This document shows positions 35,867 to 38,506 of a DNA stretch of 64,000 bases, one piece after another. Below the pieces are notes generated by a model that was given only the letters and a program-made list of their open reading frames with translations, did no database searches and had not been told where the DNA came from. The stretch's first letter is position 1; every line of letters starts with the position of its first letter. The position numbers and the translations under genes were made by a program. The DNA lies in assembly GCA_003216575.1 (NCBI GenBank), contig QCIR01000001.1, forward strand, positions 124,001-188,000. Direction: 5' to 3'. The stretch comes from Prochlorococcus sp. AG-402-M23. Lineage in GTDB: Bacteria; Cyanobacteriota; Cyanobacteriia; PCC-6307; Cyanobiaceae.

Positions 35867-35887
35867 GACACAAACAAAACGACAAGT

Positions 35888-35916
35888 AGTTCTTTTGTAC
35901 TATACTAAATTATACT
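35888..35916 (+). promoter_or_regulatory. LexA-box-like site over the umuDC promoter
   Basis: AGTTCTTTTGTACT (35888-35901) matches the cyanobacterial LexA-box pattern RGTACnnnDGTWCB with one mismatch and is near-palindromic. A -10 hexamer TATACT lies at 35911-35916, and 17 bases separate it from the first six bases of the box, which therefore occupies the -35 position. umuD begins 11 bases after the -10. This layout fits LexA repression of umuDC and induction by DNA damage. The consensus is from memory; binding is untested. Confidence 0.6.
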
Positions 35917-35927
35917 GATCTGGGTCT

Positions 35928-36374
35928 ATGGATTCAAATAGCTCCTACTCTTCCTCAAAGGAAGATTCTCTTCCGCTATTAATTCCATTAGCAAAAGCAA
36001 CAATATCTGCCGGTTTTCCATCCCCTGCAGAAGAATCTATGGAGTTAGGTATCGATCTAAATAAATATTTAATCAAGAATACAATCAGTACTTTCTTTCT
36101 TCGCGTAAGTGGTAATTCAATGAATAATGCAGGAATTTATGATAATGACTTATTAATAATAGATCGCAGTATAAATCCATATCCTGGACATATTGTAGTT
36201 GCTATCATTGATGGAGAATTCACATTAAAGAGACTTATAAAAGAGAAAGATAATTATTATCTAAAAGCAGAAAAAGAAAATTATCCAGCAATAAGTTTAT
36301 GCGAATATTTAGATATTCATATATGGGGAGTCGCAATTTATTCGATACATGAACTAAAAAGAAAAAAGACATAA
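35928..36374 (+). CDS. umuD: UmuD-type S24 peptidase, DNA polymerase V accessory
   Basis: UmuD self-cleaves under RecA-DNA stimulation to UmuD', which joins UmuC as translesion polymerase V. 148 aa. The cleavage site lies in SAGFPSPAEESMELGIDLN (Ala-Gly bond). The catalytic Ser is in RVSGNSMNNAGIYDNDLLIID, and the catalytic Lys in DGEFTLKRL. The C-terminal S24 beta-fold is complete. umuC begins 2 bases after the stop, and a LexA-box-like site is upstream, so this is a full SOS mutagenesis operon. Confidence 0.94.
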   Translation: MDSNSSYSSSKEDSLPLLIPLAKATISAGFPSPAEESMELGIDLNKYLIKNTISTFFLRVSGNSMNNAGIYDNDLLIIDRSINPYPGHIVVAIIDGEFTLKRLIKEKDNYYLKAEKENYPAISLCEYLDIHIWGVAIYSIHELKRKKT

Positions 36375-36376
36375 GT

Positions 36377-37654
36377 ATGAGAAAAGCAATAGTACACATT
36401 GATGGAAATAATTTCTATGCTTCATGTGAACAAATGATCGATCCTTCTTTAATAGGAAAGAGATTAGTAATACTTTCAAATAATGATGGGTGCATAATAG
36501 CCCGCAGTGCAGAGGCAAGAAAAATAGGAATTCCAATGGGAATACCATATTTCAAATTAAAAAATAAATTAAATCAACTAAACATAAAAGTAAGAAGCTC
36601 AAATTACGCTCTTTACGGTGATATAAGTAATCGATTAATGCAACTACTAAAAAGGAATTGTGAAGAGCTAGAAATCTATTCTATAGATGAAGCATTTGGA
36701 ACGATAAAACGACCAAAAGACAAATATCTATATCAATGGGGAAAAGATTTAAGATCATTAGTTTACCAAAACATAGGAATAGCAATATCAATTGGTATTG
36801 GTGAAACAAAAATTTTATCAAAAATTTCAAATCATATAGCAAAGAAAATAGAAACAAATTCAGGTATATTTGATATAGGTGTTGTTGATAATAAGGATAA
36901 TTATCTTAATCAGATTAAAGTAGATAAAGTTTGGGGTGTAGGTAGAAAAATGTCAACATGGCTAAAAAAAAGCGGAGTAACTAATGCTAGAGAACTTAGA
37001 GATATATCAAGCAAACAAATCAAAGAAAAATATGGCATAGTTGGTCTACGAATAAAAAATGAGTTAAAAGGTAACCTCTGCATCCCAATCAAAGAAACAT
37101 CTTCAGACAGAAAAGAGATCTGCGTAAGTAGAAGTTTTGGTTATCCAATAGATAATTTACAAGAGTTGAATCAAGCAATAGGTAAGTATATTCTAATTGC
37201 AAGTTCTAAGCTTAGAGAAAACAAGCAATTAACTTCAGCTATTACGGTTTTTATCGCCACAAGTAATCATACAAAAGATTATTTTAAAAGTGAACTAACA
37301 GAGAAGTTAAATATACCAACCTCTGACTCGAGAGTTTTACTAAAAGAAAGTTTAACGTTAACTAAAAAGATATTTAGGCCTTATAGAAATCTCGTAAAGG
37401 CAGGTATAATATTACATAAACTCCAGAGCAGTCAATATAAACAAAATATAATTTTTCCAAAGCAAAATATTCAAGAAGAATTAAATATAGAAAGACTAAA
37501 TAATCTAATCGATAATATTAATCAGAGAAATGGAAAAAATATATTAGGTTGGGGATCCTCTACAATTGAAGAAAGTTGGAAGCCACGTCGAGAGAAGCTG
37601 TCTTATTTAAAAATAACAGATATAGAATATCTTCCAACAGTATCAGCTAATTAG
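36377..37654 (+). CDS. umuC: Y-family DNA polymerase V subunit UmuC
   Basis: Error-prone translesion polymerase, 425 aa. The N-terminal palm has the first metal site HIDGNNFYASCEQMIDPSL, then VILSNNDGCIIARS and GIPMGIPYFKL. The catalytic acidic pair is in IYSIDEAFGTI, where Gly replaces the more usual Leu after AF. A thumb HhH region (VWGVGRKMSTWLKKSGVTN), little finger and the C-terminal UmuC-specific domain follow (WGSSTIEESWKPRREKLS). Only 2 bases after umuD. Confidence 0.95.
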   Translation: MRKAIVHIDGNNFYASCEQMIDPSLIGKRLVILSNNDGCIIARSAEARKIGIPMGIPYFKLKNKLNQLNIKVRSSNYALYGDISNRLMQLLKRNCEELEIYSIDEAFGTIKRPKDKYLYQWGKDLRSLVYQNIGIAISIGIGETKILSKISNHIAKKIETNSGIFDIGVVDNKDNYLNQIKVDKVWGVGRKMSTWLKKSGVTNARELRDISSKQIKEKYGIVGLRIKNELKGNLCIPIKETSSDRKEICVSRSFGYPIDNLQELNQAIGKYILIASSKLRENKQLTSAITVFIATSNHTKDYFKSELTEKLNIPTSDSRVLLKESLTLTKKIFRPYRNLVKAGIILHKLQSSQYKQNIIFPKQNIQEELNIERLNNLIDNINQRNGKNILGWGSSTIEESWKPRREKLSYLKITDIEYLPTVSAN

Positions 37655-37731
37655 AATTTATTATAAGTTAAATCCATTTATAATTAGACTTTATGTTAAA
37701 TTAGATCAAACAAAAATCATAGAAAATAAAA

Positions 37732-38193
37732 ATGGAGTTTATTGAGTTTTTAGATCAAAAAGAAATTGAAATAATAAGGATTATTGAAAAAGCTGGTTAT
37801 TCAACAACAGAAAATACATCTCTATGTTTATTAAGTGAGAAATTCGTAGGTTTTTTCAAAAAAAAAGAAAAAAAAATCATTATTTGTACAGCTAATGCAA
37901 AAAAGAAAGAAGCTTATTCACTTATAAGAAGCAAAAATAATAGTGATCAATTTGAAAGAACATCAATACATATAAAAAAGGCATTAAGACATGAAGCTGT
38001 TCATGTAGCACAAGAATGTAATGGTGGAAACTTATTAGATATAAAAAGAAAGTTATCAATGAACCCGGCAAAGAATGAGGCTTTAAAAGGTTCTATAAAT
38101 ATATCTGGAGAGGAAGCAAAAGAAAGACAGGCATATATCTTAGAAGACAAACCAAAATTACTAAAAAAAGAACTAGAAAAATATTGTCTATAA
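37732..38193 (+). CDS. Hypothetical protein with an HEAVH zinc-protease-like motif
   Basis: 153-aa lysine-rich protein not recognised as a known family. A KALRHEAVHVAQECNGG segment (about residues 83-99) contains HEAVH, an HExxH metal-binding motif of the zincin type, with downstream Glu residues (KNEALKG, GEEAKERQAY) as possible third ligands. The rest has a helical N-terminus (FLDQKEIEIIRIIEKAGY) and a beta segment (KKIIICTANAKKKEAYS). No signal peptide. It follows umuC by 77 bp on the same strand. It may be a small metallopeptidase; alternatives are a structural zinc protein or chance motif. Confidence 0.62.
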   Translation: MEFIEFLDQKEIEIIRIIEKAGYSTTENTSLCLLSEKFVGFFKKKEKKIIICTANAKKKEAYSLIRSKNNSDQFERTSIHIKKALRHEAVHVAQECNGGNLLDIKRKLSMNPAKNEALKGSINISGEEAKERQAYILEDKPKLLKKELEKYCL

Positions 38194-38200
38194 TATTTTA

Positions 38201-38506
38201 TTAATAATAATTATCTTTAATCAACTGAATGGAGTTTAACTTATTGCTGTAGATCAAAAGCATTCCTTTTTCAATATATGTCAAACCAATATGAGTTTTA
38301 ATAACATGAGAATTAACAAGGGCTGTTCCACATGTTTCCAGTATAAGAACAGGCAAAGTAGAACTTGTTCCTTGCATAATTTGCAGATCTAGAGCTTGGC
38401 GAACAGCTACTTTAGCTTTAAAAATACCAATTTTATTGATGAAATCAGACCAAAGATCATTTGATAAAAAACATTTATCAAAATTTAGAAAAGAAGAGTT
38501 CTTCAT
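38201..38506 (-). CDS. Hypothetical protein downstream of dnaG
   Basis: 101 aa on the dnaG strand, starting 22 bases after the dnaG stop. Helical N-terminal half (KCFLSNDLWSDFINKIGIFKAKVAVRQALD) and a beta-rich C-terminal half (TLPVLILETCGTALVNSHVIKTHIGL). Two Cys residues. No motif recognised and no membrane helix. Likely cotranscribed with primase. Converges on the HEAVH gene with 7 bases between stops. Confidence 0.6.
   Translation of the reverse strand: MKNSSFLNFDKCFLSNDLWSDFINKIGIFKAKVAVRQALDLQIMQGTSSTLPVLILETCGTALVNSHVIKTHIGLTYIEKGMLLIYSNKLNSIQLIKDNYY

Follow-up and report, generated by a model that had tools for sequence, protein, structure and literature searches.

A conserved HExxH protein of metalloprotease type behind umuDC in Prochlorococcus and its relatives beside the sliding-clamp gene of cyanophages

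Introduction

Among the described proteins to which the protein considered here can be compared, the ImmA/IrrE-type proteases are small HExxH proteins that act on repressors. Wss1 and Spartan (SPRTN) are minigluzincin-type proteases, and Wss1 possesses a cysteine switch (PMC4559962). Atp23, a member of the Peptidase M76 family, is a protease of the mitochondrial intermembrane space and contains ten cysteines (PMC4951193). As regards the genomic context, in several Prochlorococcus umuCD is a predicted member of the LexA regulon (PMC3091678), and umuC expression stays high under UV (PMC2921402). A further point of comparison is phrog_16003, a PHROG family of cyanophage proteins whose function is left blank.

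Prochlorococcus is exposed to intense light, and its genome is very small. Despite this small genome, it retains, together with an error-prone polymerase, an undescribed gene of protease type. The locus is presented here on a window of 64,000 nucleotides from Prochlorococcus sp. AG-402-M23, that is, the whole stretch of DNA that was analysed and to which the coordinates given without a locus name refer.

A Conserved Protein Encoded behind umuDC

The protein, 153 amino acids long, is encoded at 37732–38193 on the forward strand, starting with ATG 77 bp after the umuC stop codon, and umuC lies on the same strand. With 24 lysines and a pI of 9.2 it is lysine-rich, as an earlier note made from the letters of this DNA had described it, and host forms are in general basic (median pI 9.4). 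The motif that the note had singled out lies in the stretch RHEAVHVAQEC, where H87-E88-A-V-H91 (codons at 37990–38004, forward strand) would constitute a putative zinc-binding and catalytic motif. Taken alone, HExxH is only mildly unusual, since it arises in 110 of 20,000 shuffles of the protein (about 0.5%); in other words, the motif does not carry the case, which rests on conservation. In particular, H87, E88, H91 and A134 are invariant in all 97 diverse homologues, which settles the matter of the motif and excludes the objection, raised in the note itself, that the two histidines and the glutamate might not be conserved. Residue 94 is Gln in 95 of the 97; at residue 131, Glu occurs 91 times and Asp six times, the Asp rows being all of phage origin. 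E131, in an ExxA sequence (codon at 38122–38124, forward strand), is the likely third metal ligand.

Selection and distribution were also considered. A dN/dS of about 0.2 was obtained for the open reading frame against four relatives, and an orthologue is present in 35 of the 41 genomes of the window's genus, the six genomes without one being only 51–84% complete. In the named genomes scanned, 238 matching stretches encode a relative, and the best 80 of these 238 loci are all from Prochlorococcus. Judged by its conservation, 37732–38193 encodes a real, strongly conserved and previously undescribed protein; no description of it was found in the open literature searched, and subscription papers may differ.

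The two genes that precede it on the forward strand are umuD (35928–36374; Peptidase_S24, Pfam 2.5e-26) and umuC, encoding the catalytic subunit of Pol V (36377–37654; Pfam IMS 1.4e-31, IMS_C and DUF4113). This arrangement is widespread: among the 77 named Prochlorococcus genomes whose flanks are long enough, 73 have umuC directly upstream of the HExxH gene. The gap between the two genes measures 3–12 bp in 17 of these 73; it is 5–10 bp in group g18 and mostly about 75–100 bp in the window's genus. Within the window's gap no terminator-like site was found, and an Rfam search around the operon did not find an RNA element. The gap does contain TATGTTAAAT (37692–37701, forward strand), aligned by eye and absent from a consensus promoter scan, as a possible extended −10 of an internal promoter. 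A TATGnTAAAT-like element precedes the gene at the same place across the genus, as read by eye, and may represent such an internal promoter.

The earlier note was correct that a LexA-like box is absent directly upstream of the open reading frame. The box stands instead in front of umuD (AGTTCTTTTGTACT, 35888–35901, forward strand), where it falls inside a promoter-like pair at 35879–35906; in the window, 0.61 such boxes are expected by chance. With at most one mismatch, a box of this type precedes umuD in 68 of 68 relatives, as against one of 68 for an equally long control stretch, and with zero mismatches in 26 of 68 against none. These boxes agree with the published prediction of the LexA regulon and with the expression of umuC under UV. 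Together with the linkage to umuC, they give substance to the damage-linked neighbourhood that the note had suspected, and it is very probable that the gene encodes a real protein of metalloprotease type belonging to the umuDC operon.

A possibility raised by this context is that the protein is a regulatory protease whose cleavage of LexA, UmuD or UmuC acts as an on/off switch for the SOS response or for Pol V. The operon shared with umuD, itself a LexA-like S24 peptidase, and the LexA-type box in front of it would fit such a function, and the proximity of a small HExxH protein to a LexA-like peptidase recalls the ImmA/IrrE setting. Similarity to M78 is nevertheless absent, with no match in the own genome and an hhalign probability of about 3%, which leaves the anti-repressor suggestion of the note unsupported, and the phage relatives adjoin gp45 and not a repressor. 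A regulatory protease is, on balance, decidedly unlikely.

Predicted Fold and Family Membership

AlphaFold2 predicts a compact fold for the window protein (pLDDT 91, 17 sequences) and a comparably confident one for a phage homologue (pLDDT 95.5, 38 sequences). The model consists, in order, of N-terminal helices, a small three-stranded sheet, the long HExxH helix, the helix of E131 (predicted helix 128–137) and a C-terminal helix. Neither the host nor the phage model gave a significant fold match in the PDB: the host model returned noise, and the phage model weak matches, chiefly to lethal factor, a gluzincin (best E 0.49, TM 0.41). This weak resemblance to lethal factor (M34) concerns the phage model only, is accompanied by no sequence similarity that could be found and does not amount to kinship. 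Against viral structures, the host model retrieved cyanophage proteins first and, after them, weak matches to IrrE-like and SprT-like proteins. At the sequence level, the single protein yielded nothing useful against Pfam, NCBIfam and PDB sequences, and the family profile only chance-level matches against PDB sequences. Weak Pfam matches among 47 family members were to Peptidase_M76 in 12, to SprT-like in three and to WLM in one. Weak gluzincin folds, weak Pfam matches and confident models, considered together, support a gluzincin-like putative zinc protease outside every curated Pfam family. The zinc-metallopeptidase type proposed in the earlier note thus gains support from the invariant His, Glu and His, from Glu or Asp at position 131 and from a confidently predicted model that weakly matches zincins.

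A conserved fold could also be kept for other purposes, with the protein acting as a pseudoenzyme or as a structural partner of Pol V or of the clamp, the zincin fold being maintained without proteolysis. Activity is known for no member of the family, and E131 is replaced by Asp in the six phage rows; both histidines and the catalytic Glu88 are, however, invariant in 97 of 97 homologues, a constraint needless for a pseudoenzyme, so that this explanation is highly improbable.

Three candidate families were considered; SprT and M78 were rejected, and M76 is not supported by its cut-off. Peptidase M76 (PF09768) is the nearest Pfam family and the most frequent weak match, and Atp23 shares with the present family an HExxH followed by Cys and a richness in cysteines. 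The match covers only about 50 residues, though, and nearly always lies below the curated cut-off: the window protein has no Pfam match, the best relative tested reached 23.2 bits against a cut-off of 25.2, and the lone locus attaining it, from a distant Synechococcus, stands just at 25.2 bits. A secreted relative matches Peptidase_M76 at 6.4e-5. Identity with SprT-like proteins (PF10263) was rejected at an hhalign probability of 15%, and the sole SprT match of the own genome is another gene (C24). The likeness to SPRTN and Wss1 consists in a small zincin, a replication-linked context and the weak SprT-like and WLM matches, whereas the third ligand of the present family is probably Glu or Asp and no DNA- or clamp-binding parts were identified in it. 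ImmA/IrrE identity (M78, PF06114) was rejected on the M78 comparisons given above.

A match over most of its length was instead found with phrog_16003, to whose profile the window protein aligns at 1.5e-14 over residues 9–151; a phage protein (L031) matches the same profile at 1e-15, and host and phage proteins are hence members of the same family. In comparison with this PHROG, the host form is basic, 153 amino acids long, without a signal peptide and linked to umuDC.

Relatives in Cyanophages

The search for cyanophage homologues suggested in the earlier note was carried out. A tblastn search with the single protein gave only weak matches in phages, whereas an alignment-based scan recovered a phage family with 170 matching stretches; the following counts are taken from 80 of these 170 stretches. 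In T4-like cyanophages the HExxH gene lies directly after gp45, the sliding-clamp gene, in 79 of 80 contigs, the remaining one starting too close for the arrangement to be seen. A homologue of Pyr_excise, the pyrimidine-dimer glycosylase, and the clamp-loader gene gp44 are each found in 77 of 80. In the Synechococcus phages S-SRM01 and DSL-LC02 the gene follows the clamp gene with an overlap of one base, and in S-SRM01 the Pyr_excise gene comes next.

Some features of these contigs may be recorded separately. A MoxR-type AAA gene is located upstream of gp45 (L031 16–3878 and other phage contigs), and in S-SRM01 and DSL-LC02 it is preceded by a large gene annotated as a peptidase. The homologue of DSL-LC02 (L130 4001–4411) is annotated, apparently in error, as serine hydroxymethyltransferase.

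The closest non-host relatives of the window protein are T4-like cyanophage proteins. In the tree, host forms group with the gp45-linked forms (100/91), and host forms together with two phage rows make up one branch (96/93), with the secreted forms falling outside the host and gp45-linked clade except for one long-branched row (L174). On the evidence of this tree, the host protein and the clamp-linked cyanophage proteins are of common descent, and their presence in one clade suggests that the gene has passed between cyanophage and Prochlorococcus.

A family common to phage and host would also be expected if the gene served phage takeover, cleaving a replication protein or another protein of the host, with the Prochlorococcus copy captured as a decoy or defence; podophage relatives are found immediately ahead of the gene for the phage RNA polymerase. 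The gene is near-universal in Prochlorococcus, under purifying selection and with its motif intact, which speaks against this possibility and makes it very unlikely.

Signal Peptides, Cysteine Pairs and Unlinked Copies

Signal-peptide-like N-termini, as judged by eye, characterise the cyanobacterial relatives outside the host and phage clade and the phages P60, S-CBP42 and ACG-2014f. By profile comparison, the cellular ones among these relatives are firmly joined to the form that lacks a signal peptide (hhalign 99%, E 6e-21). In the podophages P60 and S-CBP42 (L132 1472–1960 and L133 3878–4357) the genes with such starts immediately precede that of the phage RNA polymerase. In one genome (G070), two secreted-type relatives are in tandem (L160/L184), with five family-profile matches in all. 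A small-genome Prochlorococcus relative (G268) carries a signal-peptide-bearing second copy (L174) as well as one linked to umuDC.

The cysteines follow a regular pattern. C32 (codon at 37825–37827) pairs with C52 (37885–37887), and C96 (38017–38019) with C152 (38185–38187), all on the forward strand, in the sense that none of the 97 homologues has one member of a pair without the other: 85 have all four, 11 the second pair only and one the first pair only. This all-or-none behaviour is expected of two disulphides. One reading of the invariant pairs in signal-less forms is that they reflect a redox-gated enzyme.

In a small number of divergent genomes the gene is found away from umuDC. In three genomes (g182) it lies close behind a ribosomal-protein gene read by eye as rplT, and in G472, G453, G054, G455 and G488 at other loci. 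A strict LexA box was sought before these unlinked copies and not found. Their persistence indicates that the gene is kept even after the linkage is lost.

These observations bear on the possibility that the protein descends from a secreted cyanobacterial family and is a protease of general quality control or of redox stress, placed behind umuDC on account of shared light and oxidative stress and with no role in DNA repair. The signal-peptide-like starts of the wider family, the two cysteine pairs, the retention at unrelated loci such as that behind rplT, and M76 as nearest Pfam family, with Atp23 as a cysteine-rich intermembrane-space member, are all in its favour. The signal-less host and phage forms are, on the other hand, linked to replication or translesion genes, and a purely general function is considered unlikely.

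A Possible Role at Damaged Replication Forks

The best account of the locus, to be held tentatively and with somewhat less than even confidence, is that of a cytosolic metalloprotease which is induced in the SOS response and whose substrates are proteins at damaged replication forks, in analogy with SPRTN and Wss1. The gene would be the third of a LexA-controlled umuD-umuC operon in most Prochlorococcus, and its product, a small intracellular metalloprotease of a gluzincin-like family, would bind zinc and cleave proteins. Produced alongside Pol V once DNA has been damaged, the protease would clear blockers or occupants of stalled or lesion-bypassing forks, such as DNA-protein crosslinks or clamp- or polymerase-bound proteins. 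Under oxidising stress, the two pairs of cysteines may serve to stabilise the enzyme or to gate it. Fork-associated proteolysis is the best single account because the family occurs in two separate placements, with Pol V in the host and with clamp and dimer glycosylase in phages. A host gene in a damage operon and a phage version beside the clamp gene suggest a protease at work during the copying of damaged DNA.

As evidence for such a role, the position in the operon and the synteny in phages amount to guilt by association. Two conserved cysteine pairs suit an oxidising compartment better than the cytosol, a separate SprT-like protein is already encoded in the genome, and no DNA-binding or clamp-binding motif was identified in the protein. 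The copies unlinked to umuDC and the secreted-looking distant relatives likewise call for caution. A broader proposition, which is rather doubtful, is that of one family of replisome-coupled and redox-gated metalloproteases, serving the phage clamp and the host translesion polymerase alike, clearing damaged forks and exchanged between T4-like cyanophages and Prochlorococcus. If the protein does act at the fork, bacteria would possess a translesion-linked counterpart of SPRTN and Wss1, whose function could be tested independently on the clamp-adjacent phage copies. For phrog_16003, a PHROG family without an assigned function, the proposal supplies one that can be put to the test.

Further Observations at the Locus and in Related Genomes

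Between the HExxH gene and dnaG the window contains an open reading frame of 101 amino acids on the reverse strand (38201–38506), conserved beside both genes in the genus with 54–77% identity and without a match in Pfam or NCBIfam. Three divergent genomes of the Prochlorococcus family carry a shorter paralogue of the HExxH protein (140–145 aa) at the same place (L220 5716–6138, L223 5754–6191 and L224 6106–6534), flanked by a secG-like gene and groEL, these gene names being read by eye. In a genome of the same family, a broken phage-type copy, with YDEGVH in the place of the HE motif, lies close to cas1, cas2 and cmr2/cas10 (L225 740–5840).
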